Source: Pseudobacteriovorax antillogorgiicola (GTDB lineage: Bacteria; Bdellovibrionota_B; Oligoflexia; Oligoflexales; Oligoflexaceae). Taken from it: 64,000 bases of DNA. This document shows, piece after piece, positions 2,775 to 27,434 of this stretch; position 1 is the first letter of the stretch, and each line of letters starts with the position of its first letter. The notes under the pieces were generated by a model. That model worked only from the letters and a program-made list of their open reading frames with translations, searched no databases and had not been told where the DNA came from. The position numbers and the translations under genes were made by a program. The DNA lies in contig NZ_FWZT01000004.1 of the NCBI RefSeq assembly GCF_900177345.1, forward strand, positions 124,001 to 188,000. Direction: 5' to 3'.

Positions 2775-4193
2775 ATGACTATTGAGGTCGCAGCTTTAAA
2801 AAAATTGGTTAGTTTTATCCATTTGCCTGTGGTGGTGTTGAGCCAAAACCAAACTATCGTCATGATGAGTGATTCCGCGCGAGACAAGCTGGGTTTGAAG
2901 GGTAAACTTGAAGGCAAAAGCTTTTCCACCTTGAGCGGCAAGGGAAGCTCATTTGAGGAGCTACAGAACATGGTCGTTGCTGCTGTTGGTGGTGCTACGT
3001 TTCAAGGCGATCTTTGGCGCATGATCCCACAAGATGATGGCCAAACCATCTATGTTGGTGGCATTGATAATGGATACTGGCAAGAGCAACTGAATATTTC
3101 CGCGCGAACGATTCGAGATCATAAGCGAGCACTAGACTTAAGCTCTATTGTGGCAATCACGGATGCCCGTGGGGTCATCTCCTATGTGAATGATACCTTC
3201 TGCCGAATCTCCGAATACGATCGATCGGAGCTGATTGGTAAAACCCATGCTGTTGTGAATTCCGGATACCATTCTCCAGAGTTTTTTAAAGATCTATGGA
3301 AAACCATTGCTACGGGTCAGGTATGGAAAGGCGAAGTTAAAAATCGAGCGAAGTCCGGTAGGGAGTATTGGGTCAACACTACTATCGTGCCTTTTCTGGA
3401 TCAGAAGGGGCGACCTTATCAATATATCGCCATTCGTCAGGATATCACCGAACAGGTTGCTTTCAAGGAGGCGATCGAGCGCCAGAGAACCAATAACATG
3501 CATGCTGAAAAAATGGTTTCTTTGGGCGAGATGGCAGCGGGAATCGCTCATGAACTTGGTAACCCAGCTGCGTCTATTCAAGCTTGGCTCGATGTGATGG
3601 AATCTCATCTGCTTCGGGGTGAAGTTGATCTCGATCGTTTTTTAAAAACCCTGCCTAAGGTTCGTGCAGATGCAGTAAGAATCAAGGATATCATCCGCGG
3701 TATGCTAACCTATGCTCGCGACGGCTCGAAAGACCCGTATATGTCCGAAAGTTTGGCTAAGTTAGTGAAATTGGTACAGGACTATTGCTCGTTTAAGTTT
3801 AAGAAGATGCAAATAGATTTCACTTTCGAGATGGAGAACCCCTATCTGGAGCTGGAGTGTCGACTTTCTGAAATGACACAAGTCTTTGTAAACCTTATCA
3901 TCAATGCCTGCGATGCGATCAAGGATTTGGATGAGCGGTGGATTCGAATCAAGGTTGCAGAGCTTGATGACCAACTTGAAATTCATGTGATCGACAGCGG
4001 CTTCGGGATTGAAGCGGAGGTGGCAGATAAAATTTTTAATCCGTTCTACACAACGAAACCTGTGGGACAAGGCACAGGGTTGGGGCTCAGTATCGTGACA
4101 TCCATTGTGGAAGGGCATCAGGGGAGCCTTAGGCTAGACTCAGGTCAAGCTCACACTTGCTTTATAATCCGACTGCCGAAGAAACAAAAGTAG
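2775..4193 (+). CDS. PAS-domain sensor histidine kinase
   Basis: The start at ATG 2775 is preferred because AGGAGA sits five bases upstream; an in-frame GTG at 2748 lacks this. The 472-residue product has no obvious membrane segment and is probably cytoplasmic. A weakly PAS-like N-terminal region is followed by a clear PAS domain at about 122-225, with the usual block ending YIAIRQDITEQ. The dimerisation/phosphoacceptor helix has His259 in the motif GIAHELGNP, and the ATPase domain follows (N box LIINACDAI, G boxes SGFGIEAEV and GTGLGLSIV). This is the ATP-dependent kinase that probably phosphorylates the divergently encoded NtrC-type regulator. The shared 245-base spacer would hold both promoters. 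Confidence 0.92.
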   Translation: MTIEVAALKKLVSFIHLPVVVLSQNQTIVMMSDSARDKLGLKGKLEGKSFSTLSGKGSSFEELQNMVVAAVGGATFQGDLWRMIPQDDGQTIYVGGIDNGYWQEQLNISARTIRDHKRALDLSSIVAITDARGVISYVNDTFCRISEYDRSELIGKTHAVVNSGYHSPEFFKDLWKTIATGQVWKGEVKNRAKSGREYWVNTTIVPFLDQKGRPYQYIAIRQDITEQVAFKEAIERQRTNNMHAEKMVSLGEMAAGIAHELGNPAASIQAWLDVMESHLLRGEVDLDRFLKTLPKVRADAVRIKDIIRGMLTYARDGSKDPYMSESLAKLVKLVQDYCSFKFKKMQIDFTFEMENPYLELECRLSEMTQVFVNLIINACDAIKDLDERWIRIKVAELDDQLEIHVIDSGFGIEAEVADKIFNPFYTTKPVGQGTGLGLSIVTSIVEGHQGSLRLDSGQAHTCFIIRLPKKQK

Positions 4194-4201
4194 GATTCCC
4201 T

Positions 4202-4218
4202 TGTTTAAGACTTAAACA
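4202..4218. promoter_or_regulatory. Perfect 8+1+8 palindrome, operator-like
   Basis: Just after the kinase stop codon, TGTTTAAG and CTTAAACA are perfectly complementary around a single A. No T-run follows, so a terminator is unlikely. The size and the one-base centre are typical of a dimeric DNA-binding protein site. The site lies about 175 bases upstream of the small lipoprotein gene. Its function is inference. Confidence 0.45.
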
Positions 4219-4391
4219 TCCGTTGAGCTTATTCGTATATCGATTCGGTTACCTTTTAAGCTTGGCGGAACGGATTTTAATAAAAATAGCAACTTAAGAT
4301 AAGCCCGCACCAGATCGACTTTGGCCCGGTCCTTGAATTCTTACTAGTGACCGTTAGGTTTTTACACGAATTTTTGGACGGAGTTGTAATC

Positions 4392-4553
4392 GTGAAAAAC
4401 ACAAAATTGTTCTTAGCTGTTGTTGTTCTATCTCTCGCTGGTGTTGCTTGTAGTCACAATCAAGAAAAATCTTGGGACGACTTCGTCAAGCAGCCTGGCG
4501 CTAAAAAGGTTGAAAAGAAATTAGACGACAAGAAGCAAGCTCCTGAAGCTTAA
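4392..4553 (+). CDS. Small predicted lipoprotein
   Basis: The GTG start at 4392 is chosen because GGAG lies eight bases upstream and because it puts a Lys-containing n-region directly before a hydrophobic stretch. The 53-residue precursor has a signal peptide ending LAGVAC, with Cys as the probable lipidated residue; the residue at -3 (Gly) is not ideal for a lipobox. The mature part is about 34 residues, very polar and lysine/aspartate-rich (for example KKVEKKLDDKK). No family is recognised. A rho-independent terminator lies directly downstream, so this is probably a monocistronic unit. Confidence 0.7.
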   Translation: MKNTKLFLAVVVLSLAGVACSHNQEKSWDDFVKQPGAKKVEKKLDDKKQAPEA

Positions 4554-4573
4554 CTTTTGGTTTTTGAAAAATA

Positions 4574-4607
4574 CTTCGCTTGTGGCAACTTAGCTACGCA
4601 AGCGAAG
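4574..4607. terminator. Rho-independent terminator, probably bidirectional
   Basis: A perfect 9-bp stem (CTTCGCTTG and CAAGCGAAG) with a 16-base loop is followed by ATTTTT on the plus strand. It lies between the small lipoprotein gene and the convergent dual-receiver kinase and could serve both. Confidence 0.65.
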
Positions 4608-4628
4608 ATTTTTCGCTTTTCCATTCTT

Positions 4629-6170
4629 CTAAGCCGCCAGATCATCTTTCTTAGCAACATCCTTAGCTTTCGGAAGAAAAACTGTAAATATAGAACCCTT
4701 GCCGATTTCGGACTCAACCGATATGGAGCCACCGTGGACATCTGTGATTTGCTTGCAAATAGAGAGTCCAAGCCCAGTTGATGTTTCCCCTTGAGTTCCG
4801 GGGCGAGAGGCCTCAGAAAATGGCTGGAAGATCGTTTCGATTTTATCTTCAGGGATTCCAATCCCTGAGTCTTCGACACTTAGTTGTAGGAACCCCCCAT
4901 CAGCTTCAACTAATGAAATGGAGATGTTGCCGTCCTGAGGGGTAAACTTGATGGCGTTACTGCTTAGATTATGGAATAAGCGGATCAGAGCTGACTCATT
5001 GCCGTTGACCCGAGCATTCGGATGGAAAGTAGCAGTAAGTTTGATATTCTTAATCGTTGCGAGCTTGGTCATTGGCTCAAGGACGCTATTAAAAAGCTTG
5101 TCTAGTTGTAGTACCTTGGTATCCATATCATTTTTGGTGTGCTCTAGCTTCGTAAGTGCTGCTATGTCTTGAATCAAGTGAGTTTGAACATCAACACATT
5201 TGAGAATCGATCCGAGATCCTTTACCAAAGACGGAGGCAGATCGTCATTGTCCTCCATAATGAGCTGGGTATAGCCAGTAATCGCTGCGAGAGGAGCCTT
5301 CAGATCATGGGAGCAGGCAGCCAAGAGCTGATTTTTACTCTCATGAATGGCTTCCAGTTCGCCTACTGCCTTCTTCAACTTCTTACGCTGATTCAAAAAG
5401 TTTATATGAGAGCTGATGCGAGCGAGTAGCTCTTCTTTCAGGTAGGGCTTATTCAGATAGTCAGAAGCTCCAGCCTCGAAAGCTTGTTTCAATGTGGTTC
5501 GACAATCTTCAGATGTGAGAACGATGATCGGCATATCTTTCTTACCGAGTTTCACTCTCACGTTTTGGCAAAGCTCGATACCATCCATCTCTGGCATGAC
5601 TAGATCTGTCAGGAGGATGTCGTAGGGTTCGGGATTTCTTTGCAACTCTTCAAATGCTTCGCTGCCATTAGGAAATGCTTTGGAAGCAATCCCAACGGAA
5701 GAGATATGGTGAATTAAGAGATCTCTCGCAGTCTTGGAATCCTCTGCTATAAGAGCAGTCATCCCTGAAAAAACAACTTGAGGCTGGAGGATGCGATTCA
5801 CTGTGGGGACTAGGTGATCTCTAAGGTCTGCCTTAACGATGTAATCTGTTGCCCCAGCCAGGAATCCCTTATTGCGGCTTTCCATATTATCTTTCGCTGA
5901 AACCAAAATAATCGGAACCAAAGTGAATTCGTCGCCCTTATGAAGGGTTTCTTCGATGATTCGGATGGCTCGACAGGTTTCGAAGCCATCAAAGTGAGGC
6001 ATGGTTACATCCAAGACAATGAGATCTAGATCAAGACTAAAGTTCTCGGCTGCGACTCGACCGCTTTCGCATTCAATCACGTCATAACCAGCTTGGGAAA
6101 GTTCCGCGTGCAAAAACGATCGCGAAACCTTACTGTCATCAATGACTTGAATCTTGAACGAATTCGTCAT
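4629..6170 (-). CDS. Dual-receiver histidine kinase (REC-REC-HisKA-HATPase)
   Basis: The 513-residue protein has two receiver domains first and the kinase last, the reverse of the common hybrid order. Receiver 1 (about 5-125) has phosphoacceptor D54 in VLDVTMPHF. Receiver 2 (about 135-255) has LTDLVMPEMDG. A short coiled linker leads to the HisKA helix with the H box CSHDLKAPL, then a HATPase domain with N box LSSNAIKF and G boxes DSGIGIPED and TGLGLSICK. No membrane segment is visible, so the kinase is probably cytoplasmic and controlled by phosphotransfer onto its own receivers from another kinase. A GGAGG-like sequence precedes the ATG at 6170. No partner gene is adjacent. Confidence 0.92.
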   Translation of the reverse strand: MTNSFKIQVIDDSKVSRSFLHAELSQAGYDVIECESGRVAAENFSLDLDLIVLDVTMPHFDGFETCRAIRIIEETLHKGDEFTLVPIILVSAKDNMESRNKGFLAGATDYIVKADLRDHLVPTVNRILQPQVVFSGMTALIAEDSKTARDLLIHHISSVGIASKAFPNGSEAFEELQRNPEPYDILLTDLVMPEMDGIELCQNVRVKLGKKDMPIIVLTSEDCRTTLKQAFEAGASDYLNKPYLKEELLARISSHINFLNQRKKLKKAVGELEAIHESKNQLLAACSHDLKAPLAAITGYTQLIMEDNDDLPPSLVKDLGSILKCVDVQTHLIQDIAALTKLEHTKNDMDTKVLQLDKLFNSVLEPMTKLATIKNIKLTATFHPNARVNGNESALIRLFHNLSSNAIKFTPQDGNISISLVEADGGFLQLSVEDSGIGIPEDKIETIFQPFSEASRPGTQGETSTGLGLSICKQITDVHGGSISVESEIGKGSIFTVFLPKAKDVAKKDDLAA

Positions 6171-6555
6171 TCTAACCTCCTGGACCGACTATCGGAGCTT
6201 CCTGAGGGATGTTAAGTCTAGGCTTGAAAAAAATCAGCCTCTTTAACCAAAGCCACCGGGTGTTTGCGAGAATGCTGGGAGTTATTGTTAAGGTACAGAT
6301 ATAATGGAACATATCGAGCCTTTTGAGCTGATTCGATACGGCGAGAATCGACCTTTTTTCGGCAGAACTTTGGCTGTGAGCTAGCTAAACATCATAAACG
6401 AAAAGACAAATCCCAAGGTCAAGGTCTGGCTATCAGATCTGTGAACGAAGCGTCGAATACTAACATACTGTAAATAAATATACTTTTGCTGGTACAGCTC
6501 ATGCATTTCTTCGCCAGATTCACAATAAATTGATATTAGTTATTTGAGGGACGTG
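6171..6555. other. Divergent intergenic region, 385 bases
   Basis: This spacer separates the minus-strand dual-receiver kinase from the plus-strand DM9 lipoprotein and must hold promoters for both. It is A/T-rich. I see no gene, no convincing terminator and no well-spaced -35/-10 pair that I would defend. Confidence 0.5.
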
Positions 6556-7617
6556 ATGTGGACATTGGCGGGATGGTTGATACGGTTATTTTCAGTTTCA
6601 GTCTTGGGTATTTTGGGATGCAACAATAGTAGCCTTGTCGATGCAGTGCAGACAGGAAAGACTAGCGAAGCTCAGGACGATGACGTTCGCGAGCGAGAGG
6701 ATGAGGCTGTCTCGACTCCGGTCAATGTTAGTGGTGCCTATCTATATTGCCAAGTGAACCAGCCAGCAATAGCCGACGACCCAGGAATCATAGGGTGTGC
6801 GATTCAAGATATCGAAAGCAATGAAAAACTCGATCTTGGCGAATGGAATGACGATATCGTCTGGCAACCTCAGGTAAACGACTCTCAGATTCGCATTGAA
6901 ACGCAGACTCAGAAACAGAGTTCTGCGTGGCATGCCCTGCACCTGATTCAAGGTGAAAGTGCAGACCAAGTCAATGAGGCGATGGCAAAGATTTGGTTTA
7001 AGGCAGCTGTCCCTGGAAGAATTCCCTTAGAATCCAATCAGGCTGGCCCCCAGGAAGCGGTGGAGTTTGTCGAAGAAGCCGCGACAATGGTCGATCAAGT
7101 TTTAGAATGGCAAGCTTTAACTGGTGAAGCTGTTCCCACTAATGCTGTTCCCGGCGGCTCAGAGCATCGTGGTTTAGTGCCTTTTACGGTTTGTCGCAAC
7201 TACCATAGTGGAGGCGTGATTCCAGGGAAACTGGCCCCTCATCATCTTGATTCTTCACGATCCATTTGCCGGACAGCTTTGGATGGTGCTACCTTTCTAT
7301 CTGTAAATTCCCAGTTCGAACTGCTCTATCATTACGATGTTTTAGTCGAAAAACCCGAGGATGAGTATCAATGGATCTCCTCAAGTGATGGCAACGTGCC
7401 CGAGAAAGCAGTGATAACGGGACGGCTTGCAGATGGAACAGCTCTGTACTCTTGCCGAAACCTTGAAGCCGGCCCCCCACCCGTAGCAGAGGATCGAACG
7501 AATGATCCAGCAGGGGAGCAAACCCCCGGCTACCTTGCTGATGGCGCTACAGACTGTGTTCATGAGTACTATGGTGAAAAGCGCTCGACCAGTTATGAGG
7601 TGCTCGTCAAGCAATAA
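6556..7617 (+). CDS. DM9-repeat (DUF3421) lipoprotein, paralogue 1
   Basis: ATG 6556 is preferred because GAGGG lies five bases upstream. The 353-residue precursor begins with a hydrophobic signal sequence ending ILGCN, a likely lipobox. An acidic linker (about 25-45) leads to a beta-rich region, and the C-terminal 170 residues hold two DM9-type repeats. The first runs from WQALTGEAVP through TVCRN and GGVIPGKLAP. The second has the fuller pattern GNVPEKAVITG, DGTALYSCR, PGYLADG and a final YYGEKRSTSYEVLV. DM9 repeats are known mainly from insects and molluscs, where some members bind mannose-type sugars. Binding of surface or extracellular glycans is therefore a plausible inference, not a demonstrated role. 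A paralogue lies at 35991-37103. Confidence 0.8.
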   Translation: MWTLAGWLIRLFSVSVLGILGCNNSSLVDAVQTGKTSEAQDDDVREREDEAVSTPVNVSGAYLYCQVNQPAIADDPGIIGCAIQDIESNEKLDLGEWNDDIVWQPQVNDSQIRIETQTQKQSSAWHALHLIQGESADQVNEAMAKIWFKAAVPGRIPLESNQAGPQEAVEFVEEAATMVDQVLEWQALTGEAVPTNAVPGGSEHRGLVPFTVCRNYHSGGVIPGKLAPHHLDSSRSICRTALDGATFLSVNSQFELLYHYDVLVEKPEDEYQWISSSDGNVPEKAVITGRLADGTALYSCRNLEAGPPPVAEDRTNDPAGEQTPGYLADGATDCVHEYYGEKRSTSYEVLVKQ

Positions 7618-7628
7618 GGCGCTTTATA

Positions 7629-8021
7629 CTATAGCAGGCCAAAGCCCGCCATGGCGAGGGGAACTAGGCTAGCAAGCCAAGCGAGACCCCAAATGACGCT
7701 ACGCTGCCACGATAGGTTCAAATTGTAGGCGGCGACGTAGGCAAGCCTTGCGATAATGAAGGCAAGTCCACAGCTGTGTAGAAGAGATTCAGGCTGATTA
7801 GTGACATGCCCTACGATCATGGAAGTGGCGAAAACGGGAAACGCTTCCATCGTGTTCAAGTGAGCGTTGTAAGCTCGTTGGATATCCTCAGTTTCTTCGT
7901 ACTGTTTTCTAGGATTGTAGTTATTGTATCGCTTTTTATGCTGGATGACTTTGACGACGGCTGGAGCTTTGGAAAAAACGTTAAGCAACGCTGCTAGAAA
8001 TATATAAGCAAAAACTGTCAT
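7629..8021 (-). CDS. MAPEG-family membrane protein, copy 1
   Basis: The 130-residue protein has about four hydrophobic helices and the family signature region RAYNAHLNTMEAFPVFA near residues 49-65, including the Arg, Asn and Glu used for glutathione contact in MAPEG proteins. The length is normal for bacterial members. MAPEG proteins are small trimeric membrane enzymes related to microsomal glutathione transferases. The substrate here is unknown. A GGAGG lies before the ATG at 8021. It is convergent with the DM9 gene, leaving only 11 bases between the stops. A second, more divergent MAPEG-like gene lies at 10651. Confidence 0.85.
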   Translation of the reverse strand: MTVFAYIFLAALLNVFSKAPAVVKVIQHKKRYNNYNPRKQYEETEDIQRAYNAHLNTMEAFPVFATSMIVGHVTNQPESLLHSCGLAFIIARLAYVAAYNLNLSWQRSVIWGLAWLASLVPLAMAGFGLL

Positions 8022-8182
8022 GATTGACCTCCTTATGCCTAAAGGACACGCCCTCGATCACCCAAACCAATTGCGAAGTGGATATGCCATAGCTTGTCGG
8101 AGCGTATAGGCCAGTTTATGGAAAGTCAAGGATTTCAAAACGAACTGCTGGAATTGGCAGCAGTTCCTCATCATCGTCTGAG

Positions 8183-9148
8183 TCAGCGCTTGCCATTCCA
8201 AGTGCCACGGCGGTTACTGCCTACAGTGCGACCAACGCCCCATTCACCTTGAAAGACTTGAGCAGAACGATCGCTCGTTCTAAAACGAAACCAACCTTCT
8301 TGACCATTATCGAAGCGCCAGCGCCCAACGACTTTTTTGTTGGCATTGCTATATCGAACGTCTTGTAGAGTTCCCTTACCACCGGAAAATGTTTCGTAGC
8401 GGCCACCGAACTTGTCAAAACTCATAGACCCATATTGGATATTACCATCGGCTGCAACATAGCTAAACTGGTATGCCCCTTCCATCCATGGATTGTCTCC
8501 ATGTCCTGGTTCGCCGCCACAATCTTGGTAGTCTAGAAAGTAGCGAAACGCTCCACCATCAATTGCCATGTAGGTTTCTTTGGTCTCAGCATTGGCTCTA
8601 TGAGCAGCAATTATGATATCGGCTTGCATTAAAATTTGAATATTGCCCTCGCTATCGCCACATTCGCTGTATCCTTCGCCGATGTTGGTGGTTTCAACGA
8701 TATCTTGGACCTTGGGCTGATGGAAGTATCGATTGACAGTTAGTCGTCGTTCACTGTTTTCATAGCCTGGTCTTACAATGAGAAATGACTGCCCGTTTAA
8801 ACTAACCTCAGTTTCACCTTCCAAACCCAATTGACTGAAGCGAACTTTTTTTCCTTCTGGAACCTTAATGGGAATCACGACGCCACAGGATGCATGGACC
8901 TGTCGGTAATCGGGACTCGTTTCGATATTGAATTCATCGAATGAGATATCAAAGGTGCCATCGTTATTGGGACGAATATTTACGTTATCTTCAAAGCAAA
9001 AGGACCCGATATCTTGGGACTGCTCACCACTTGGTACATCGCTATTATTTACATCAGTTGTGTAAAAATTATCGTAGTCGATGTTTGGGGTAATGGCATC
9101 AGCAGTCCATGATATTCCTAGTGCGATCAATGGCAATAATGCTTTCAT
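8183..9148 (-). CDS. Exported DUF4360-like protein with extra C-terminal beta domain
   Basis: The 321-residue precursor has a signal peptide (MKALLPLIALGISWTADA, cleavage predicted after ADA). The first 200 or so residues resemble its two neighbours and the DUF4360 pattern: an early Cys (GSFCFED), a block with Cys followed by IPIKVPEGKKV, then a glycine-rich strand (LEGETEVSLNG), a late Cys (YSECGDSEG) and a closing IDGG. Unlike the neighbours it continues for about 105 residues of glycine- and aromatic-rich sequence with repeated W/F-x-F/W strands and ends TWNGKR. It is the last gene of a three-gene minus-strand cluster and starts only five bases after the preceding stop. DUF4360 has no established function; a secreted or surface role is inferred. 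Confidence 0.75.
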   Translation of the reverse strand: MKALLPLIALGISWTADAITPNIDYDNFYTTDVNNSDVPSGEQSQDIGSFCFEDNVNIRPNNDGTFDISFDEFNIETSPDYRQVHASCGVVIPIKVPEGKKVRFSQLGLEGETEVSLNGQSFLIVRPGYENSERRLTVNRYFHQPKVQDIVETTNIGEGYSECGDSEGNIQILMQADIIIAAHRANAETKETYMAIDGGAFRYFLDYQDCGGEPGHGDNPWMEGAYQFSYVAADGNIQYGSMSFDKFGGRYETFSGGKGTLQDVRYSNANKKVVGRWRFDNGQEGWFRFRTSDRSAQVFQGEWGVGRTVGSNRRGTWNGKR

Positions 9149-17646: not shown

Positions 17647-17870
17647 CTAACTTCTCGGCTGCCTCTGATGCTATCTGAGCAATCGCAGAGGTAAATAATT
17701 CCTTTTAGTAGTCTTGCTTATATAGCCTTTAGTCATCATTCACAGATCGTTTTTGCTAAGTATTTTGAAATTTACCAAGTTTGAATCGGAGCATGATTGT
17801 AAAGGCTTGCCGGAAGATCCCGATGAATCCATCAGATAAATCTATGTTGTGATATGTTAGCGAGGCAATC

Positions 17871-18956
17871 GTGGTCCTAGGCCGATCAGATGATAGTGGC
17901 GAAATCTTCGTAAAAGATGAACTTGACCTTTCGAAGGCAAGTTATGCAGAAGGCTTATCCTCAACTGATTTTAATCAGGAAACAGAGGCCTTTCATGTCA
18001 CCTATGATAGGATATTATTCAAGTCTCCTATGGAAATCATCGCCACAGTGCTCGACGCAAATGGCTACCTAGTGAATCTAGAGAATATAATTGCTTGCGT
18101 TGACGACCTAAGCTTTGGAGTTCGGGCTCAGCTGAAGAAGTCTGGTGCTCAGTATCCCGTTGCGAAGAGTTTTATACCTTGTTTACAGTTTCGGCTTCCC
18201 AAGAAATCGAAGATTGGGCCGATCCTACAACGGTTCTACGGAGAAATCGAAGCATATGAATCGCGCTTGGCGGAGCTTCAGGGGCATCCGAATAAAAAAG
18301 GTCCGAAGCTAAAAGACCCCAAAGAGCTAGATACTCAGCTAAAAAAACTGGAAAAAGAAAATAAGGATCTCCGCGACGAGGTCAACGAGCTGAAATCCCA
18401 GCTGGGTAGAATCGTGAAGGCTGAAGCCAGTGCTAATCGTGCCTTGGTAAACCAAAATTTAATGCCACCCAATATTCGGCTCGCGAAAGTTCGTGATGTT
18501 GACCTGGCAGAAAGGGTGATCGGCCTCCGAGCAGGACGTACCAATATCAATTTTCCGATGGTCCTCAGTCCTGTAGTCCCAGAACTTGACGATAAGTGCC
18601 TTGTCCATATCGAACAGGGACAAGTGCTTGGCGGTTTCTTCTATGAATCGAAGGGGAAGGATATCGATCCTGGGCTGGGAGAAATCCTTTGGGTTGATGG
18701 TGACACCTGTAAGATACGAGATCCTGAACGGCGTATCTGGCTGATCAATGCGAAGCATGATGCTGAACGAGAGATGTTTAGTCAAATGAAGCGAGGCGAC
18801 GAGGTTCTGCTCTATATGCTTGAAGGCAAGGTGGTTCGTATTCAAACCATGAAGCAGGCGCAAAGTTTATACTACATCAGCAAAGTGATGGATGCAGTCA
18901 CCAAGCAACAACTTAATCGCCGTGATCCTGTGACCCGTAAACAGGGAGAGTCTTAA
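17871..18956 (+). CDS. Coiled-coil protein of unknown function, first gene of the MotAB-helicase operon
   Basis: The GTG start at 17871 has GAGG five bases upstream. The 361-residue protein has no signal peptide or membrane segment. Residues about 130-190 form a charged coiled coil (for example LEKENKDLRDEVNELKSQL). The part before it (1-130) contains two cysteines and a proline-rich run (FRLPKKSKIGP); the part after it is beta-rich, with MVLSPVVPELDDKCLVHIEQG and a final RIWLINAKH region. I do not recognise a family. The stop is followed after one base by the TTG start of the MotA-like gene, so the link is tight. A scaffold or regulator of the channel or helicase is inference only. Confidence 0.75.
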   Translation: MVLGRSDDSGEIFVKDELDLSKASYAEGLSSTDFNQETEAFHVTYDRILFKSPMEIIATVLDANGYLVNLENIIACVDDLSFGVRAQLKKSGAQYPVAKSFIPCLQFRLPKKSKIGPILQRFYGEIEAYESRLAELQGHPNKKGPKLKDPKELDTQLKKLEKENKDLRDEVNELKSQLGRIVKAEASANRALVNQNLMPPNIRLAKVRDVDLAERVIGLRAGRTNINFPMVLSPVVPELDDKCLVHIEQGQVLGGFFYESKGKDIDPGLGEILWVDGDTCKIRDPERRIWLINAKHDAEREMFSQMKRGDEVLLYMLEGKVVRIQTMKQAQSLYYISKVMDAVTKQQLNRRDPVTRKQGES

Positions 18957-18957
18957 C

Positions 18958-19737
18958 TTGGACGGTCTGAATCTTAAAAAGTATTTGATGACCAGCCGCA
19001 AGCGTTTCGACCCAATCGCACTTGTGATTAGTATCATTGGATTGGTTGCCGTAGTGTTTTCAATTGCAGCAAAAGAGAGTCTGCAAAGTTATTTCGATCT
19101 GCGATCAATTCTCGTTGTAGTAGTAGGTACTTTTGCGAGCCTCCTATTCCAATTTGACTTTGGGACATCAATTTATAGCCTTAGACTAGTTATAATGTCG
19201 TTTCTGGGTACACCAGAGAAAAAGATTATCGACACTATCCATCAGATTGATGAGGCTATCCTTGAAGATATGAAGCTCCAGGACCTGCGGGAGGGCGATA
19301 ACATCAATGGTGAGTTACTCAACGATATTGTCTATATGTTCAAACAAGGGCTTTTGTTCGAAGAGATCGACGAATTTGTAACTTCCCGGGTTTCTGATGA
19401 GTTTCTGGGGCGCAAAGTTGCGGTCGATCTTCTCCGTCGAGCGGCTATCATTGCCCCAGCACTCGGCTTGTTTGGAACCGTTATCGGATTGATCGGTGTC
19501 CTGAAGTCATTGAGCGACCCTAGCCAAATAGGCCCATCCATGTCCCTAGCTTTGATGACAACGGCCTATGGCGCAGGTATTGGTTCTCTAATTTTTACTC
19601 CCTTAGCGGGGCGACTTGAGCATCATAATACAATCTACTTGGAAGTCCATCAGCAGATTCTCTCGAAAATTGCTATCCTTCTCAAGCGGGATGAAAGGAA
19701 CCCCAAGTCAGAATTTAAACCTGAGGGGGTTTCATGA
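18958..19737 (+). CDS. MotA/TolQ-family channel subunit
   Basis: The start is a TTG one base after the preceding stop, with GGGAG about eight bases upstream; an in-frame ATG at 18988 is the alternative. The 259-residue protein has four membrane segments in the MotA order: two N-terminal (about 20-70), a cytoplasmic loop, then two C-terminal ones beginning RAAIIAPALGLFGTVIGLIG. This carries the conserved channel Pro and the GTVIGLIG motif. The cytoplasmic loop is shorter than in typical MotA and lacks the clear 'RREGLLALE' segment. The length is near the usual 255-290 and there is no long coiled tail as in ZorA. It pairs with the MotB-like gene that overlaps it by four bases; together they would form a proton-driven stator unit. 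Confidence 0.9.
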   Translation: MDGLNLKKYLMTSRKRFDPIALVISIIGLVAVVFSIAAKESLQSYFDLRSILVVVVGTFASLLFQFDFGTSIYSLRLVIMSFLGTPEKKIIDTIHQIDEAILEDMKLQDLREGDNINGELLNDIVYMFKQGLLFEEIDEFVTSRVSDEFLGRKVAVDLLRRAAIIAPALGLFGTVIGLIGVLKSLSDPSQIGPSMSLALMTTAYGAGIGSLIFTPLAGRLEHHNTIYLEVHQQILSKIAILLKRDERNPKSEFKPEGVS

Positions 19738-20390
19738 AGCTTCAGGATCTTGCGTCTCAGGCAGAAGATGATAGCCTTACATCGTTCTATATCAGCTTTA
19801 GCGATCTAATGGTTTTGCTAGGAGTGTTTTTTGTGATGCTTCTATCGATGAGTAAAGTTGATATTGGGTCCTTTGAAAAGGTAAAGACTAGTTTTAGCGG
19901 CAGCACCAAAGGAACTCTGATTGAGCTTGCCTCTCAACTTCGAGAGGTGGTGGAAGGGGTGCCTGGAGTCCCAGGAGTGAGTGTCCATATGGCAGAAGAT
20001 GGGGTGCGACTGGATTTGGATACCGGAGCACTCTTTGATACCGGATCGGCCAGCGTAAAAGAAGGAGCCTTAGAGCCTCTGACACCACTTCTCGAAACGG
20101 TCAAAGGCACTAGTTATACCATTGATGTTGAGGGTCATACCGATGATCTTCCTCTTTATCGTTTCTATAAGGTCGACGATGAAAAGGTTCTTGAGACCAA
20201 TTGGTCTTTGAGTGGTAGGCGGGCCGCAAGTGTGGTTCATTTTTTACTGCAATCAGGTTTCAAACAAGATCGTTTGAGACTAGTTGGATACGCAAGTACC
20301 AGGCCATTGAAGTCAATCAAGGATAAGCGTGGAGATGAACTACAGGCGATTCGTGCAGAAAATCGACGGGTTTCTCTTCTAATAAAGTAG
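19734..20390 (+). CDS. MotB-like stator protein with OmpA peptidoglycan-binding domain
   Basis: The ATG overlaps the MotA-like stop (ATGA). The 218-residue protein has a single N-terminal membrane segment reading SFSDLMVLLGVFFVMLLSMS, with Asp24 in the position of the proton-carrying Asp of MotB. A short linker leads to an OmpA-type domain with DVEGHTDDLP, NWSLSGRRAASV and a final AENRRVSLLI, which are the peptidoglycan-contact motifs. It is shorter than E. coli MotB (308), as many bacterial stators are. It could power flagella, gliding or a defence machine; no flagellar gene is near. It is separated from the helicase gene by only 11 bases. Confidence 0.92.
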   Translation: MKLQDLASQAEDDSLTSFYISFSDLMVLLGVFFVMLLSMSKVDIGSFEKVKTSFSGSTKGTLIELASQLREVVEGVPGVPGVSVHMAEDGVRLDLDTGALFDTGSASVKEGALEPLTPLLETVKGTSYTIDVEGHTDDLPLYRFYKVDDEKVLETNWSLSGRRAASVVHFLLQSGFKQDRLRLVGYASTRPLKSIKDKRGDELQAIRAENRRVSLLIK

Positions 20391-20401
20391 TTTGGATTGG
20401 A

Positions 20402-23400
20402 ATGAGCTTTTTATCGAAACAATCTCCTGAAGTCGGCTTTACAGCGAAGTTTGATCGCCAGAATCGATATGTTTTGCGTCGTCGCCGCACCCCTGTCGGG
20501 CTATTTGAGTATATCCTAGAAAATAGTATGTCTCAAGAGAAGCTCACCATACCAAGGTACCTTTTCGATCGATTTCGAGCTACCATGCAGTTGATGGCTG
20601 ATCAACTTGACGAGGAGCGCCTACCTAGCAAAGAAATCGATCATAAGATGTACTTCAAAGATCGCGAGTGCTACCGGTTTCGTTATTCCACCCAAACCAT
20701 CGATCATCTTGTTATTAACAGTCTGATCCACAATAGTTCACTCAAGGCTCCCAAGGATGCAATACCAGTTCTAATCAAATTGATGTTTCATGAAGGGTTG
20801 GAGCATCCCAGTGATACTTTTGATGCAATTATTGATTATCATCGACTTTTTCAGTTCAGCTTTGTGGAAGGCAGCGAAAGTATCACCAGTGGCTTGATTC
20901 TAAGGAAGAACGTACTGTCGGAAAATGACAACTATACCCCTTCGTTGGAACCACAGGCTCAAGAAAACAAGGTCTTCTATCCAGGGGAGCAATTTCAAGA
21001 AGGTGAGCTTAAAGGTATTGCCCCTATTGCGAGTTCTGGCAGCCCGAAAGAAGGGAGTTTTAAATCAAAGCTCGGACATAGGAATCAGAGTGATAAGAAT
21101 TATAGCGTGGACTATGACTCGCTGTTTAGCCAGAAAGCGGCTTCAGAGACTAGTGGAACACCGGACCCAAAGCCAAAACCAGCAAGCTTTAAACGAAGCG
21201 GCAATACCTTTCCTCTGCCGCTGCTAGCTAGTGATATAAAAGCTGCGAAGTCGAAGGTGTTCAAAGTTGAGCTGTCTATGGAGGATGCAGCGGCGTTTCG
21301 GGATGATTTCCTGACGGATCGCAGCTGCGATCTCTTTCTAGGATTTGAAATTATGGATACCATTCATAAGGTGAATGGTAAGCTTAAGACTTATCGGTTT
21401 CCTTTGTACTATATGAAAGTGAAGGTTGAAGAGTCGGGGCGCTTTCTTCATATGACTCCACCTAAAGAGCAGGATATCTATCTGAACCATATTGCGCTTA
21501 TCACCCTGGTAGAGACCCATAGTGGCAAGAAGGGTGATGAACCACTACAAAGATTCTTAGATCACCTCTTGGCTCAAAAGATCGAGGTTAGTAAAGATCT
21601 CTATCCCATGAAGATAGTTCGGCAATTGCCTTTTTCTGATGAGGTATTTCAACAAGCTCGCGATATTCTTATTGGTCAGCCCGGAGATCAGGGTAAGGGT
21701 GGAATCCTAGAAAACCTAAAAGTCATTGGTATTGAGTGTGATCTAGAGTCTGTGATTGTATACAAAGTCGGTCGGGTTGCAACTCCTACTTCGACTGCTT
21801 TGAACAAAGATTTAAGTCAGATTCAGCAGCTGGCTCATGAGCAGCCAGAACGATTCTATCAATCTTTGCTTGGTCGATTTTTGGTTCCTGAGCGCCGTGT
21901 GGATCGGGAACGAAGCGATCTTGGAATCCTGGCTATGAATCCGGGCTATCGTCCACGCTCAACCCAGCAACTTATGAGTCATTTAAACGAACACGACTTG
22001 ATTTTATTGGAAGGCCCACCAGGAACGGGAAAAACATTCACTATTATGAATCTATTTATTCATTGTGTGAATCACGGTAAGCGCTTATTGATCGTCAGTG
22101 ATCAAAAGGCCGCCTTGCATGCGCTCACCGAGAAGATGGAAGAGTACCTTGTAGGTGCAGACTATAATACTCCATTTGGCAAGAAAACGCTCTCCCTTTG
22201 GAAAAGTGCCATTCGAGTTGTGGACGAGGTCGCCGATGAAACCGATGATCTCAAAACTTGGACTGCTAAGCTGATCAAGATGCTTGAACTAGATTACTGC
22301 CGGGAGCAAGACTGGCCTGATCGAGACGATCGTTTGGTAGATAAGCTGAACAAACTTGATCAGAGCCAAGAAGTCTTGAGGAAGCAGTTATCAGACATAC
22401 TCGAACGGAGGTTCGGAGGTCGAAAAGGAGAAACAAAGGTTGCGCCGAAATCCTTTCATCCTACGACAGAGGGTGATATTCGGAATCTTGTGGATTTCTT
22501 GCACTTTATCGGGGCGGGTGAACATAGCAAAATTAGGCAGACAGAAGACTATGTCAACAATCAGGAGCTTGCTAAGCGATTCATTGTGAATCGCGAGCAA
22601 ATGTCAGACGGCGTGCTAGCACCATGTTATGCTTGCTTTGCGATTGATGTCGATGATCTCGGAGTGTGCGTCGATTTTACAATGAAACATGGGGTGATTC
22701 TAGACAAACTAGTTGCCACTAAGCCTAGAACCTTAGCAGATTTCCGAGAAGCATTTCCCGATGATGATCGATCTGAATTTAGCAACTTTCTCTTAGAACA
22801 TTGGCAAAAGGCTTTCACTGATGAGAACACTGGACTGATTAAAAAAATATCTTCCCTTATTAGCCACCCATGTTTGCCCCTGTGGAAGCAATTGGCTGGA
22901 TTTCTTCAAGATCAGAAGACTCTCCTTGAAGAAGTGAGCAAGATGGAGAGGTCTTATGGCATCATGAGCCAACTTCAAGAGATCCATAAGTCTCTCGATC
23001 CCGATCAACAATCTGAAAAAACATCTGCAGCTCTTGAAATCTGTCGATTGACTCAGGATGACTCAGCCGTGGCCAAAGAATCAGTTCATCGCATCTTGCG
23101 TCAGATGGCTGACCTTCAAGCTGACCGAGATAGGCTGATTTACCAGCAGTTCCTAACTCGGCTGGGAGATATTTGCTTAGAGGTGATTAAGCCAAGAAAA
23201 AATGGAACGAATCTCGTTACGTCTATCAACAACTTGCTAGAATCTCTGAAGGATAGCAAAACCATTGATCATGGTAGTGGTGTTCCGGTGTTGAAGGAGC
23301 TCCAAGAAAGACTTGTGGAGGCTTTTCCAGTTTGGCTCTGCCGTAAGCAAAGCGCGTCCTTCCTATTTCCTAGCCAGGCCGATCAGTTTGATTTGGTCAT

Positions 23401-24700
23401 CGTTGATGAGGCTGGTCAATGCCGGGTAGATGATGCGATTCCTTTGCTATACCGCGCGAAAAAACTGATGGTAGTAGGAGACGAGAAGCAAACTGTGCTC
23501 GATAAGAACTCTGTGGTTGATGACTACCTTTTTAGCGAGTTTGAGTTAGAAGAGCAACTTCGCACAAGCCAAGCCCGTGGTGTTAAAGGAGGCGGCTCCA
23601 ATCTCTTCGCTCTAGTTAAATCGATCAAGCAAGGTGGAGTGATGCTGGATGAGCACTATCGCTGCCCACCAGATATAATCGCTTACTCGAATCGCTATGT
23701 TTACAACTCCGAATTGAAGATCATGCAGTGGCAGCACCCAACAGCATCATCTTCGGTAGTGGTTGATTATCGCGAGAAGAATCAAGAGCCAAGCAAGAAA
23801 CCCACATCTGGTCGTTTCAAAGGAATAGAAGTGGATATGATTGATCGCTTCTTTGATTTTGTTGCTGAAACCGTTAAGGCCCTCGAAAGCGAAACTGGCG
23901 AACGCATCAATATGGAAACCGATGTTGCGCTCTGTTATTTTCTCCTAAAAAACGAACCATATGTAAAAGAACAAAAGTCGAAGTTCTTACAGAAGCTAAG
24001 GCGTGGTAATGATGTGCTTGATGGAGCTGGAGCAGCGCTACAGGGTAAGGAAAGAAAATATATCTTCTACTTATGGGATATCAATCGTAGTAATCTGACT
24101 TTCTTTAGGCAAGGTGATGATCCCGACAAGCGAAAAGGTGAATTAAACGTCTTGATGAGTCGACCTAAGGTACGGGCCTATCACTATCTTCACCATAGTT
24201 TTGATAGCTTAAAGCATGAAACTGCAAGCATCACCGACTACCTGTGGAAGACACTCCAAAGTCAGGATCTATCAGAAGCAGAACAGGGCTTTAAAAACAA
24301 AAGGACCAAGCGTCCTGCGCGAGACTTTAGCCCCTGGCAACGCTCCAGTGGTCAAACGATACTCGCTATTTTATCGTTTATCTGGAAAACAAGAGGCCTG
24401 GAATTCCACGATCCAGGTGAACAAACCCACTGTAGTGTCGTGGTCGGGGATCCTCGACGCAAGGTTGATCTGATGGTTCTTGCACCTCCCGGTGGGAAAC
24501 AGAAATGTGTAGGGGTGGTCGATTTGAGCGCTTTTGAAGATGCTCAGAATCCTTGCGAGGAGCTAATTAACTATTATTTTCAGCTTCAAAGGGTGAAGCC
24601 TGCTATGGAGCCAGTGTTTGCATTTTTACACGAGATTGCTGATGAGCGATCAGAGACTTATCGTGATCTTGAGAATTTGGTTCGCTCCTTAATCTCCTAG
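20402..24700 (+). CDS. Giant UPF1-like SF1 helicase with possible C-terminal nuclease domain
   Basis: The 1432-residue protein carries a split SF1B helicase core. Walker A GPPGTGKT lies at 538-545; motif II is IVDEAGQ near 1000-1006, followed by VVGDEKQT (motif III). DEHYRCPP follows, then LQGKERKYIFY (motif V) and LNVLMSRPK in the place of motif VI (normally NVALTRA). A helical insertion of about 400 residues lies between motifs Ia and II. The first 520 residues are unassigned. The last 120 or so (beginning SGQTILAILSFIWKTRG) contain KVDLMVL and VGVVDLSAF, reminiscent of the restriction-endonuclease-like tail on MTES_1575/DUF4011 helicases but with the metal-binding residues not clearly kept. 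It is the last gene of the operon, 11 bases after the MotB-like gene; the upstream signal is a weak TTGGA. Confidence 0.88.
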   Translation: MSFLSKQSPEVGFTAKFDRQNRYVLRRRRTPVGLFEYILENSMSQEKLTIPRYLFDRFRATMQLMADQLDEERLPSKEIDHKMYFKDRECYRFRYSTQTIDHLVINSLIHNSSLKAPKDAIPVLIKLMFHEGLEHPSDTFDAIIDYHRLFQFSFVEGSESITSGLILRKNVLSENDNYTPSLEPQAQENKVFYPGEQFQEGELKGIAPIASSGSPKEGSFKSKLGHRNQSDKNYSVDYDSLFSQKAASETSGTPDPKPKPASFKRSGNTFPLPLLASDIKAAKSKVFKVELSMEDAAAFRDDFLTDRSCDLFLGFEIMDTIHKVNGKLKTYRFPLYYMKVKVEESGRFLHMTPPKEQDIYLNHIALITLVETHSGKKGDEPLQRFLDHLLAQKIEVSKDLYPMKIVRQLPFSDEVFQQARDILIGQPGDQGKGGILENLKVIGIECDLESVIVYKVGRVATPTSTALNKDLSQIQQLAHEQPERFYQSLLGRFLVPERRVDRERSDLGILAMNPGYRPRSTQQLMSHLNEHDLILLEGPPGTGKTFTIMNLFIHCVNHGKRLLIVSDQKAALHALTEKMEEYLVGADYNTPFGKKTLSLWKSAIRVVDEVADETDDLKTWTAKLIKMLELDYCREQDWPDRDDRLVDKLNKLDQSQEVLRKQLSDILERRFGGRKGETKVAPKSFHPTTEGDIRNLVDFLHFIGAGEHSKIRQTEDYVNNQELAKRFIVNREQMSDGVLAPCYACFAIDVDDLGVCVDFTMKHGVILDKLVATKPRTLADFREAFPDDDRSEFSNFLLEHWQKAFTDENTGLIKKISSLISHPCLPLWKQLAGFLQDQKTLLEEVSKMERSYGIMSQLQEIHKSLDPDQQSEKTSAALEICRLTQDDSAVAKESVHRILRQMADLQADRDRLIYQQFLTRLGDICLEVIKPRKNGTNLVTSINNLLESLKDSKTIDHGSGVPVLKELQERLVEAFPVWLCRKQSASFLFPSQADQFDLVIVDEAGQCRVDDAIPLLYRAKKLMVVGDEKQTVLDKNSVVDDYLFSEFELEEQLRTSQARGVKGGGSNLFALVKSIKQGGVMLDEHYRCPPDIIAYSNRYVYNSELKIMQWQHPTASSSVVVDYREKNQEPSKKPTSGRFKGIEVDMIDRFFDFVAETVKALESETGERINMETDVALCYFLLKNEPYVKEQKSKFLQKLRRGNDVLDGAGAALQGKERKYIFYLWDINRSNLTFFRQGDDPDKRKGELNVLMSRPKVRAYHYLHHSFDSLKHETASITDYLWKTLQSQDLSEAEQGFKNKRTKRPARDFSPWQRSSGQTILAILSFIWKTRGLEFHDPGEQTHCSVVVGDPRRKVDLMVLAPPGGKQKCVGVVDLSAFEDAQNPCEELINYYFQLQRVKPAMEPVFAFLHEIADERSETYRDLENLVRSLIS

Positions 24701-24835: not shown

Positions 24836-24858
24836 CTGGAGGATACTTTTTCCTCCAG
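24836..24858. terminator. Perfect 8-bp hairpin, probable terminator between convergent genes
   Basis: CTGGAGGA and TCCTCCAG pair around a seven-base loop, between the helicase stop (24700) and the end of the NAMPT gene (24873). The T-runs are inside the loop or weak, so termination is probable but not certain, and it may work in both directions. Confidence 0.5.
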
Positions 24859-24872
24859 ACATTATTTAGTTC

Positions 24873-26267
24873 TCAAAGAGCATCCATACTCCGTCTTCTT
24901 ATCTTAGCAATGCAATCGTCGACTAGAAGTTCGCCATCTTTAAACACCGTTCGAAGTACATCATCTCTCTGATCATTAGAGTCCACGGTCTCCAAATTGC
25001 CATCAACTCCATAAACTAGTTTGAATCGCCCTCGCTTGGACTTTTTGAATGTAGCAGTTACAGGTTCCTTATATACATCGATCTCAGAACCATCAATGGT
25101 TACAGAAGAGCATTTAAATGCAAACTTTAGGGTGTCCCGATTGAGCTTCTGAAGTAAGGCTCCACCGCTTCCAAAGGCAATATTATCGGCTGCATATCCA
25201 CACTCAGTCATTCGCTTCAGAATCTGCTTGCAAGTCTCAAGATCAACACCATCACCTTGGATTAGCCTAAGCTGAGGTGGAAGCAGCTTGTATCCTTTGG
25301 CAGTTGTCTGGTAGCCAAACTTATTAGTCAAGATATCAAGGCACTTAATGACCACATCTACCGGGTCGCCTGAGTCAGGCCTAATGACAAGGGTTCCATC
25401 TCGTGATAGAACTTTTTCTTTAAGTGCATCCCCCCAATATTCAGAGCATGCTTTAAAAATATCGAAACTATCTGAAACACAGGCTACAAGTCCTGTTGGA
25501 TATTGGTCCAACATGTTCTCCATTGCCTTTAGCTCACCTTTGCGACCCCAACTAGTGATTGTTGAATGCTCACTAGCAGGTATTGAAAAGGCAGGCATTT
25601 CATCCGCGCCGTAGTAGTCTGAAAGCAAGCTAATTGCCGCCATGGTGTCGCTACCTAGAAAATTAAAAAGGTGAGCAGCACCGAGGATTGCAGCAGATTC
25701 ATCAGAAGATACGCCCCGATAGCCAAAATCATGGAGTTTAAATTCTAGGCCCGCAACTGCTAGAGGATCGCTGGTTTCTTGGAGGTAGTAGGCGATAACC
25801 CTTTTGAACGCTAGAGACTGAGTCGCAACAGTTGTTGGCGCCCAAACATGGGTTAGGATTGTTTCTACAAAATTCGTGAGCCAAGGCACTTCTGGATCGG
25901 TATTGACGACAGTCATCAAAACGTTTTTTCCATCGATAATAAGACCTTCTGGAACGGCTTTGATTTCTAGGGGAAGTCGTCCATCATAGGTCTCTAGGAT
26001 GTACTCCCAACCCTTCCTATTGAAGTTTTCCTCACCCATGTGAGCAGCAATAACTTTTTCAGCTTGGTCGATTTTTTCTTTTGTTACAACTTTTCCTAAG
26101 AGGTAACGCTTTAAAATATACTGAAGTCCAGCAAACATCGTGTGATTAAACGCTCCTCCGCGAGACTCGAAGTAGCTATAAACATATTGGGTTCCTTTTG
26201 GGTATTGCTTGAAGTGAGAAAATTTGTAGCTATCGGATTTTAGGATGAGGTTGTCTAGTAGGTTCAT
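24873..26267 (-). CDS. nadV: Nicotinamide phosphoribosyltransferase
   Basis: The 464-residue protein matches the NAMPT/NadV family in length and sequence, opening LILKSDSYKFSHFKQYP and ESRGG and continuing to SIPASEHSTITSWG, where His234 corresponds to the catalytic histidine of human NAMPT. Other conserved blocks are KLHDFGYRGVSS, VSDSFDI, LVIRPDSGDP, RLIQGDGV and AFGSGGALLQK. It joins nicotinamide to PRPP to give NMN, the first step of the nicotinamide salvage route that skips nicotinamidase. The next step is made by the enzyme encoded immediately upstream. The 135-base spacer carries several hairpins. The set may be transferable: this gene pair is often seen in phages and plasmids. Confidence 0.95.
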   Translation of the reverse strand: MNLLDNLILKSDSYKFSHFKQYPKGTQYVYSYFESRGGAFNHTMFAGLQYILKRYLLGKVVTKEKIDQAEKVIAAHMGEENFNRKGWEYILETYDGRLPLEIKAVPEGLIIDGKNVLMTVVNTDPEVPWLTNFVETILTHVWAPTTVATQSLAFKRVIAYYLQETSDPLAVAGLEFKLHDFGYRGVSSDESAAILGAAHLFNFLGSDTMAAISLLSDYYGADEMPAFSIPASEHSTITSWGRKGELKAMENMLDQYPTGLVACVSDSFDIFKACSEYWGDALKEKVLSRDGTLVIRPDSGDPVDVVIKCLDILTNKFGYQTTAKGYKLLPPQLRLIQGDGVDLETCKQILKRMTECGYAADNIAFGSGGALLQKLNRDTLKFAFKCSSVTIDGSEIDVYKEPVTATFKKSKRGRFKLVYGVDGNLETVDSNDQRDDVLRTVFKDGELLVDDCIAKIRRRSMDAL

Positions 26268-26297
26268 ATATTTATTCCCTTTTTAAATTTGATCTGC

Positions 26298-26316
26298 TTT
26301 AGCCACCATGGCTAAA
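26298..26316. promoter_or_regulatory. Palindrome TTTAGCCA-N3-TGGCTAAA before nadV
   Basis: The two 8-base arms are perfect inverted repeats with a three-base centre, lying about 30 bases upstream of the NAMPT start on the minus strand. The inner word TAGCCA...TGGCTA is also found upstream of the NMN adenylyltransferase gene at 27494. Next to it are two shorter stem-loops, GCTCC/GGAGC (26332-26347) and GCTGAG/CTCAGC (26360-26381). The site could be an operator or part of an RNA element; no known NAD riboswitch was recognised. Confidence 0.5.
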
Positions 26317-26402
26317 ACCTTTTACTCTGAGGCTCCATCACCGGAGCTTCTAGGGCACTGCTGAGAAATCACCTCCTCAGCTTATCTCAACGGACACTCT
26401 TG

Positions 26403-27434
26403 CTAATATCTTCGCGTGAAATAGCGAATGATGTGAATATGATCTTCAAAAAACTCTGCAGACCGCTCATAGGCCTCTTCAATGGGCATCCACCAAGCCT
26501 TTGCTGCATCGTCTCCGCCTTTCACCTCGGGAAGCCTTCCCCCATCGGAAAGCTTAAAACAGAATCCGTGTGTTACTGTCCTGCCACGGAGACTTCTATC
26601 TGGGTGGTCAAACACTTTTGATTCCGGATTCAGATTTTTTAGATAGTCAGCATTAATGTTGATCGAGGTTTCTTCTTTGAGCTCCTTGATAGCATTATCG
26701 AGGAGACCTTTTCTGACGTTAAGGTGGCCCCCCGGAAGAGCTAGCATGCCCACCCCCGGATTCTGTCCGCGCTCTACCACGAGCACGCAGCCATTTTTTA
26801 TAACCACAGCATCGGTTGTGATGAAAACAGGTGGATAGGGCAGGCTTTGGAATTGCTCCTTGTAGCCTTCATAAAATTGATACTCTTTCTGAAGCGCAAC
26901 AAAGTCATCTTCCATAACCCATTCTATGAGAAACGCCTTCACCCCCCTTGGGACATCTTTGATGTTCTTAGGGTTTTTCCCTTCAAATAGCTTTCTCCTG
27001 ATATCGGTTGCAGAAAGGTTCTTATTAGGCACGTGTATGATCTCTCGCTTCCAGCTATCTGGAAGGGAAGCTATGTAGTAGCTACTTTCGTCTTTATTGC
27101 AGCCTGTAAGGCAGACTTTTCCAGAAATATTAAGCTCAGACATTTTCTGCTCAACCAACCTTGCAATCTCAGAAAACCATTGAGTGTCATTGTAGAGGTA
27201 GTCACGAGCAAATACTAAGTGCACACGCTGCAAGTCGTCATCGTTGAGAGATCTTTCAATCATCTCTCGACGTTGGTCGCCCGAAAAGGGGTTTTTAGGT
27301 GTCCTTGATGTCCTATCGGAACCAATAACGAGTATGAGTGTCTCTGCAATTTCGAGGGATCGTTTGATTTCTGATAGATGGGAGTTGTGTAGTGGTTGGA
27401 ATCTTCCAATAAATACAGCGACTTTATAAGTCAT
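26403..27434 (-). CDS. Bifunctional NMN adenylyltransferase / Nudix hydrolase (NadM-Nudix)
   Basis: The 343-residue protein joins two domains. Residues 1-180 form a cytidylyltransferase-fold NMN adenylyltransferase with GRFQPLHNSH (10-19, HxxH in place of the usual HxGH) and LSATDIRRKLFEG (140-152). Residues 205-343 are a Nudix domain with the box starting GGHLNV at 235; the ELKEE core glutamates are kept, but the first box glutamate is Lys and the following Arg is Lys. It would turn NMN plus ATP into NAD, with the Nudix half cleaving ADP-ribose or related nucleotides. It lies upstream of NAMPT in the same transcript direction, forming a two-step nicotinamide-to-NAD route. The sequence does not allow certainty that the Nudix half is active. 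Confidence 0.9.
   Translation of the reverse strand: MTYKVAVFIGRFQPLHNSHLSEIKRSLEIAETLILVIGSDRTSRTPKNPFSGDQRREMIERSLNDDDLQRVHLVFARDYLYNDTQWFSEIARLVEQKMSELNISGKVCLTGCNKDESSYYIASLPDSWKREIIHVPNKNLSATDIRRKLFEGKNPKNIKDVPRGVKAFLIEWVMEDDFVALQKEYQFYEGYKEQFQSLPYPPVFITTDAVVIKNGCVLVVERGQNPGVGMLALPGGHLNVRKGLLDNAIKELKEETSININADYLKNLNPESKVFDHPDRSLRGRTVTHGFCFKLSDGGRLPEVKGGDDAAKAWWMPIEEAYERSAEFFEDHIHIIRYFTRRY

Follow-up and report, generated by a model that had tools for sequence, protein, structure and literature searches.

Whether an ion motor of the flagellar type can be committed to a nucleic-acid enzyme instead of a flagellum is the question raised by a cluster of four genes of Pseudobacteriovorax antillogorgiicola, which lies in the stretch of 64,000 nucleotides analyzed in the current work (contig NZ_FWZT01000004.1 of assembly GCF_900177345.1, positions 124,001 to 188,000; hereafter the window). 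The cluster encodes a coiled-coil protein (g1), a MotA-like and a MotB-like stator subunit and a superfamily 1 (SF1) helicase (Table 1). A preliminary description of this DNA had proposed a possible Zorya-like or new defence/motor system; of this proposal the conserved system stands, while the assignment as a Zorya subtype does not. The four genes are shown below to constitute a real, conserved and co-inherited system, which is apparently undescribed so far, its stator being dedicated and non-flagellar.

A conserved and co-inherited four-gene unit

Open reading frame (ORF) calls place 1 base between g1 and the MotA-like gene, a 4-base overlap between the MotA-like and MotB-like genes and 11 bases between the latter and the helicase gene, exactly as previously described. 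The flanking genes on either side are located on the minus strand, and the four genes form, as judged from their arrangement, a single transcription-unit-like cluster (referred to here as the operon).

The distribution of the operon was surveyed in 58 genomes of the phylum, in which the helicase was counted as full family at E values below 1e-100. This family is present in 16 of the 58 genomes, 15 of which also encode g1; in the sixteenth (G046), MotA, MotB and the first half of the helicase are encoded on a contig that starts at the MotA gene, with the remainder on another contig. Within the order the operon occurs in 15 of 43 genomes, and it is missing from all four genomes of one sister genus. 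Outside Oligoflexia, where the distribution represents a lower bound, a scan of contigs retrieved relatives at least in metagenome-assembled genomes (MAGs) of Gammaproteobacteria, Myxococcales and Cellvibrionaceae and in one MAG titled Bacteroides sp., group-wise searches added two more carrier genomes, and the operon is rare (2/195 genomes in the phylum of the Myxococcales MAG; 2/40, 1/198 and 1/369 in other sampled groups).

The complete operon was found on one contig at 19 loci (Oligoflexia, Gammaproteobacteria and Myxococcota MAGs), in all cases with identical gene order and strand, which is far beyond the chance link that the preliminary description had allowed for. Several further loci are broken off at contig ends, and the four genes follow one order wherever the contigs of the relatives extend far enough. 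The gaps between genes in the complete loci are mostly -14 to +23 bases, and the pairwise tree distances among the four proteins correlate (r = 0.81-0.91). The co-occurrence of all four homologues, which had been suggested as a check, is borne out by these 19 loci and by the presence of g1 and the helicase in the same 15 genomes. Separation of the MotAB pair (with flagellar genes) from the helicase (elsewhere or alone), which had been named as evidence to the contrary, was not encountered, the four genes staying together in relatives: no member of the helicase family without MotAB was seen where the contig allowed a look, and no stator pair beside other SF1 helicases (28-116 bits) was present among the scan matches listed.

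Two loci have peculiarities of their own. The helicase of G033 (L055:4400-8658) is encoded by two overlapping ORFs, the break falling in the linker region (about residues 297-318); this locus accounts for the lone outlier among the intergenic gaps (894 bases), and the split may reflect a frameshift or an error of assembly, or else the protein may consist of two subunits. The copy in the MAG titled Bacteroides sp. (L066, SpSt-1230) clusters tightly with gammaproteobacterial copies, the title probably being wrong or else the transfer recent.

A dedicated, non-flagellar stator

The MotA-like protein matches Pfam PF01618 (MotA_ExbB; 5.5e-19), and its best solved relative is PomA of the Na+-driven flagellar stator PomAB (6e-28), to which it is similar in length and topology, while the MotB-like protein matches the MotB_plug (9e-10) and OmpA (5e-11) families of Pfam. 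The roles of the Na+-filter and FliG-facing residues of PomA are taken from previous work (PMC10374538, PMC6677748). The counterparts of the Na+-filter threonines T158, T185 and T186 are retained in 19/19 MotA proteins of the system, and the transmembrane (TM) aspartate D24, corresponding to D24 of PomB, is found in 14/14 MotB proteins with the OmpA residues likewise invariant, in keeping with the intact motifs noted earlier. Because all three threonines are kept, the stator is probably driven by Na+ rather than by protons; the proton-driven stator of the preliminary description is probably wrong, as the channel carries residues of the sodium-driven type (PMC10374538, PMC6677748).

The surface that faces FliG in PomA differs in the system MotA. 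The position of PomA R88 is occupied by I, L or V in 18 of 19 aligned sequences and that of E96 by I, L or M in all 19, the K89 position being variable, whereas R, K and E are retained there in three stators of flagellar type that the same genome encodes. In a MotA tree (quick method, support 91) the proteins of the system group in a separate clade next to the PomA-like stators. Considering this replacement of R88 and E96 by hydrophobic residues together with the separate clade, the system MotA probably faces a partner other than FliG.

Searches for FliG_C and FliF over the same 58 genomes revealed four carriers (G023-G026, representing four genera and two families, three being at least 92% complete) in which FliF was not found and in which a FliG_C match is absent or weak (E values of 1e-4 to 1e-9, true FliG giving about 1e-40). 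The operons of the relatives are situated away from flagellar genes, as had been noted for the locus itself. A flagellar or gliding stator whose gene sits by chance beside a helicase gene could be invoked considering that the MotA sequence is nearest to PomA and that P. antillogorgiicola possesses FliG and FliF as well as numerous further stators (a total of 18 MotA/ExbB matches); however, the linkage is conserved across distant lineages, the stator is encoded together with g1 and the helicase even where the genome lacks FliF and a convincing FliG, the residues facing FliG have been lost and the system MotA constitutes a separate clade, so that a flagellar function was rejected and a chance neighbourhood is strongly disfavoured, with next to no likelihood left to it.

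Further MotAB operons of the same genome also encode additional proteins. At L173 (G000:C22:27000-40000, 4128-8327) a MotAB pair is preceded by a gene for a 228-aa protein with tetratricopeptide repeats (TPR) and followed by a gene for a 565-aa protein with a C-terminal FliG_C match (8e-6), possibly representing a non-flagellar stator with its own FliG-like partner. Two more pairs, L171 and L172 (G000:C3 and G000:C26), are located in operons that encode TPR proteins as well as proteins of 547-664 aa with weak Pfam matches or none.

The helicase and the candidate adaptor

The fourth protein matches the Pfam SF1 helicase family AAA_11 (3e-16), and its AlphaFold2 (AF2) model, which covers residues from 233 onward, retrieved Senataxin (4e-7), IGHMBP2 (6e-5) and UPF1 (7e-5), as well as Aquarius and Dna2, in Foldseek searches. 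On the basis of both sequence and model it is classified as a UPF1-like SF1B helicase, which agrees with its first assignment; the SF1 motifs are invariant in alignments of 13 and 19 sequences. The secondary structure of the C-terminal domain fits the alpha-beta-beta-beta-alpha-beta core of the PD-(D/E)xK fold (AF2, local pLDDT, the predicted local distance difference test, of about 62-91), a tentative assignment, and neither sequence nor profile searches matched this domain to known nucleases. Its two acidic positions are conserved and the catalytic lysine of the D...(D/E)xK site is absent in all 19 helicases; because of this missing lysine, an active nuclease is unlikely.

Among defence-library families (PADLOC, NCBIfam) the nearest to the helicase are MkoC (1e-26), PDC-S37 (1e-24), ProA (1e-22) and Hhe (3e-21). 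The profiles of Mokosh (MkoA/MkoC), Hhe and ProA are thus the nearest ones of the SF1 core (1e-20 to 1e-26; PLuB 8e-11), but the matches are confined to that core and lie far under the curated cut-offs, and we know of no linkage of Mokosh, Hhe, ProA or PLuB to a stator. CnuH of the CoCoNuT systems is a UPF1-like SF1 helicase in which Walker A is followed by a large helical insertion and which occurs in predicted defence operons with coiled-coil and oligonucleotide/oligosaccharide-binding (OB)-fold proteins (PMC11090510). The present helicase shares the large helical insertion past Walker A and the co-encoded coiled-coil/OB protein, whereas the four genes include no McrB GTPase, McrC, TerY-P or CnuE effector and are linked to MotAB instead.

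A coiled-coil protein as first product of the operon had been predicted, and is supported for g1 by its AF2 model and by profile matches. A Pfam search with g1 retrieved generic coiled coils only, FliG_C and any other Pfam domain not being found. The model (mean pLDDT 82) shows an N-terminal alpha/beta domain, then a coiled coil of 45 residues and finally two OB-like barrels. In Foldseek the tandem OB inter-domain of the proteasomal ATPases Mpa/ARC ranked highest (E 5e-4, identity about 10%), ahead of EF-P and IF-1; Mpa/ARC share with g1 the succession of a coiled coil and tandem OB folds, but g1 has no AAA domain and the modest match indicates a resemblance in fold only. From this model, g1 is a candidate cytoplasmic adaptor. 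Its identity as a PilZ protein was considered and rejected: an RxxxR stretch is present, but the second PilZ motif was not seen and Foldseek returned no PilZ. In the phylum of the Myxococcales MAG one g1 (L148:6825-8417) carries a long acidic C-terminal extension, its total length being 530 aa.

Table 1 Features of the four-gene operon and its borders (positions in the window)
Feature	Position	Strand	Remarks
Promoter-like site, TTCACA-16-TATTTT	17739..17766	+	Weak; upstream of g1; 9/12 consensus matches
Gene 1 (g1)	17871..18956	+	361 aa, GTG start; candidate cytoplasmic adaptor
g1 coiled coil, residues 150-194	18318..18452	+	AF2 model; coiled-coil profile matches
g1 tandem OB-like domain, residues 202-326	18474..18848	+	AF2 pLDDT mostly 82-94; Foldseek
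MotA-like stator subunit	18958..19737	+	259 aa, TTG start
MotA segment corresponding to FliG-facing interface, residues 94-126	19237..19335	+	PomA R88 replaced by L102, E96 by L110
MotA T174 (PomA T158), Na+-filter threonine	19477..19479	+	Invariant
MotA T201-T202 (PomA T185-T186), Na+-filter threonines	19558..19563	+	Invariant
MotB-like stator subunit	19734..20390	+	218 aa, ATG start; one TM helix, OmpA-type peptidoglycan-binding domain
MotB TM aspartate D24, ion-carrying residue	19803..19805	+	Invariant
UPF1-like SF1B helicase	20402..24700	+	1432 aa, ATG start
Walker A GPPGTGKT, residues 538-545	22013..22036	+	Invariant in 13 and 19 sequences
Large, mainly helical insertion, about residues 590-970	22169..23311	+	Between Walker A and Walker B; AF2 secondary structure
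Walker B DEA(G/T)Q, residues 1002-1006	23405..23419	+	D, E, A and Q invariant
Motif VI NVLMSRP, residues 1249-1255	24146..24166	+	Invariant
C-terminal domain, residues 1310-1432	24329..24697	+	PD-(D/E)xK-like topology; D1356 and D1374 conserved
Hairpin with terminator-like tails on both strands	24836..24858		Between the convergent helicase and NAMPT genes; simple consensus scan, weak evidence

The promoter-like site ahead of g1 is the only such match on the plus strand between 17.5 and 25 kb in a simple consensus scan, a number of matches that is near chance, and is suggestive only. A nicotinamide salvage pair (a NAMPT-like gene and a nucleotidyltransferase-Nudix fusion; window positions 24873-27434) converges on the operon.

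Relation to Zorya and possible function

To our knowledge, Zorya is the only described system in which a MotAB-type motor works with DNA enzymes, and its types I-III combine ZorAB with ZorCD, ZorE or ZorFG. The present system shares with Zorya a MotA/MotB-type ion motor that is encoded with cytoplasmic nucleic-acid proteins and that has the conserved TM Asp and the OmpA-like peptidoglycan-binding domain. This shared concept of a stator plus a helicase, together with a match of the MotB-like protein to ZorB profiles (2e-14, PADLOC), would suit a fourth Zorya type, i.e., a true homologue in which the effector has been replaced. However, the ZorB-type features are common to flagellar MotB and thus not specific, and among the MotD, MotS and MotB profiles of NCBIfam that also match, the flagellar MotD/MotS profiles fit better (8e-33). 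Furthermore, the ZorA profile gave no match in 16 MotA proteins of the system at E 0.01, and the MotA protein is short (257-307 aa in 22 loci) without a ZorA-type tail, as already noticed, being a PomA-type MotA with a rebuilt interface. No match to ZorC, D, E, F or G was obtained in a PADLOC scan of all four proteins at E values up to 1, the helicase is SF1B UPF1-like whereas that of Zorya is SF2 Snf2-like, and there is an additional coiled-coil/OB protein. Membership in Zorya was consequently rejected and the new subtype once envisaged is not upheld, a fourth Zorya type appearing very improbable. The best reading, by analogy, is that of a Zorya analogue, an independently assembled ion motor-adaptor-helicase machine, which fits because a wall-anchored ion motor is encoded together with a DNA/RNA enzyme. 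In one carrier (L056:13065-15809, G025) a SNF2-type helicase with DpdE and ZorD profile matches, probably a generic SNF2 protein, is encoded 134 bases ahead of g1 and in the same orientation.

As a mechanism we tentatively propose, at somewhat less than even confidence, that this dedicated non-flagellar ion motor works with a nucleic-acid helicase, possibly in defence. MotA and MotB would assemble at a 5:2 ratio in the inner membrane; the OmpA domain of MotB would tether this motor to peptidoglycan, and Na+ entering via D24 and the three threonines would drive it. Its interface with FliG having been rebuilt, the MotA ring may turn or pull on g1 instead of FliG, with the coiled coil and OB domains of g1 acting as shaft or adaptor, and g1 in turn would hold the UPF1-like helicase at the membrane or switch it there. 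Some event at the envelope, most likely the entry of phage DNA, would then set the helicase translocating 5'-3' along the incoming nucleic acid at the expense of ATP, so that this nucleic acid is stripped, unwound or blocked; the outcome would be that of ZorAB plus ZorC/D, attained by a separate route. Coupling of ion flux to helicase action appears the most economical reading, the defence role being the least certain step.

An anti-phage function is plausible, though unproven, because the helicase comes closest, among the library families, to helicases of defence systems; the patchy distribution and the scattered presence of the whole unit in distant lineages also speak for defence. Several observations weigh against the proposed mechanism or its defensive purpose. 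The likeness to defence helicases is limited to the SF1 core, an active C-terminal nuclease was rejected (both the lysine and a profile match being missing), and the stator, g1 and the helicase are only presumed to touch one another. Clustering with defence islands, suggested earlier as a check, was not seen: the 87 neighbours of relatives are mostly housekeeping genes with isolated PADLOC matches, those examined being generic SNF2, DNA polymerase I and DnaG-like proteins, and the 37 window neighbours yielded little in PADLOC besides an RtcR-like regulator. Neither 72,556 plasmids nor 50,697 phages yielded a full-length or comparable match. The G+C content of the operon is that of its surroundings, and in genus g23 the operon is present as a single copy in 6/6 genomes; because of this native composition, full occurrence and single copy, the distribution looks vertically kept.

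The mostly housekeeping neighbours, the native single copy, its vertical inheritance inside families and genera and the lack of mobile-element carriage would all be expected of a lineage-specific cellular machine, in which motor and helicase act on endogenous nucleic acid, or on nucleic acid imported at the envelope, for instance in tasks linked to the cell wall that concern the chromosome, RNA or DNA uptake. Such a machine accords less well with the absence of the operon from most genomes of the order, including all four of the sister genus, with its scattered occurrence in distant MAGs and with the defence helicases being library-nearest; we regard it as unlikely, though of appreciable weight, and defence is ranked only narrowly ahead of a cellular role. 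The flow might also be reversed, the helicase and g1 sensing foreign or damaged nucleic acid and opening the stator, so that Na+ influx depolarizes and stops the cell in an abortive defence with no torque passed on. Strictly conserved ion-channel residues and the failure to find an active nuclease are compatible with this, and for ZorAB, too, abortive defence through ion flux was suggested at one time (PMC8565338); yet a peptidoglycan-anchored rotary stator would make an elaborate leak, and work on Zorya now favours the motor-to-effector direction (PMC11890865). Reversed flow is regarded as improbable.

The RtcR-like regulator of the window is ORF A9, a CARF/AAA/HTH protein (1.5e-102 in PADLOC); regulators of this type occur near CoCoNuTs (PMC11090510).

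No operon of this kind was described in the literature searched, which largely did not cover subscription papers and preprints. That the system represents a motor class distinct from Zorya, namely a flagellar-type Na+ stator which has lost its FliG interface and has been re-coupled via a coiled-coil/OB adaptor to a UPF1-like helicase, with ion flux at the cell wall controlling or powering nucleic-acid translocation, is a proposal to which we assign an even chance. If true, it would constitute a second, independently assembled stator-helicase system, implying that the coupling of an envelope ion motor to a nucleic-acid enzyme arose more than once; it would provide a compact model, with a short MotA and no long tail, for motor-to-enzyme signalling, and would illustrate clearly how a stator of the flagellar type can be co-opted for work outside the flagellum.

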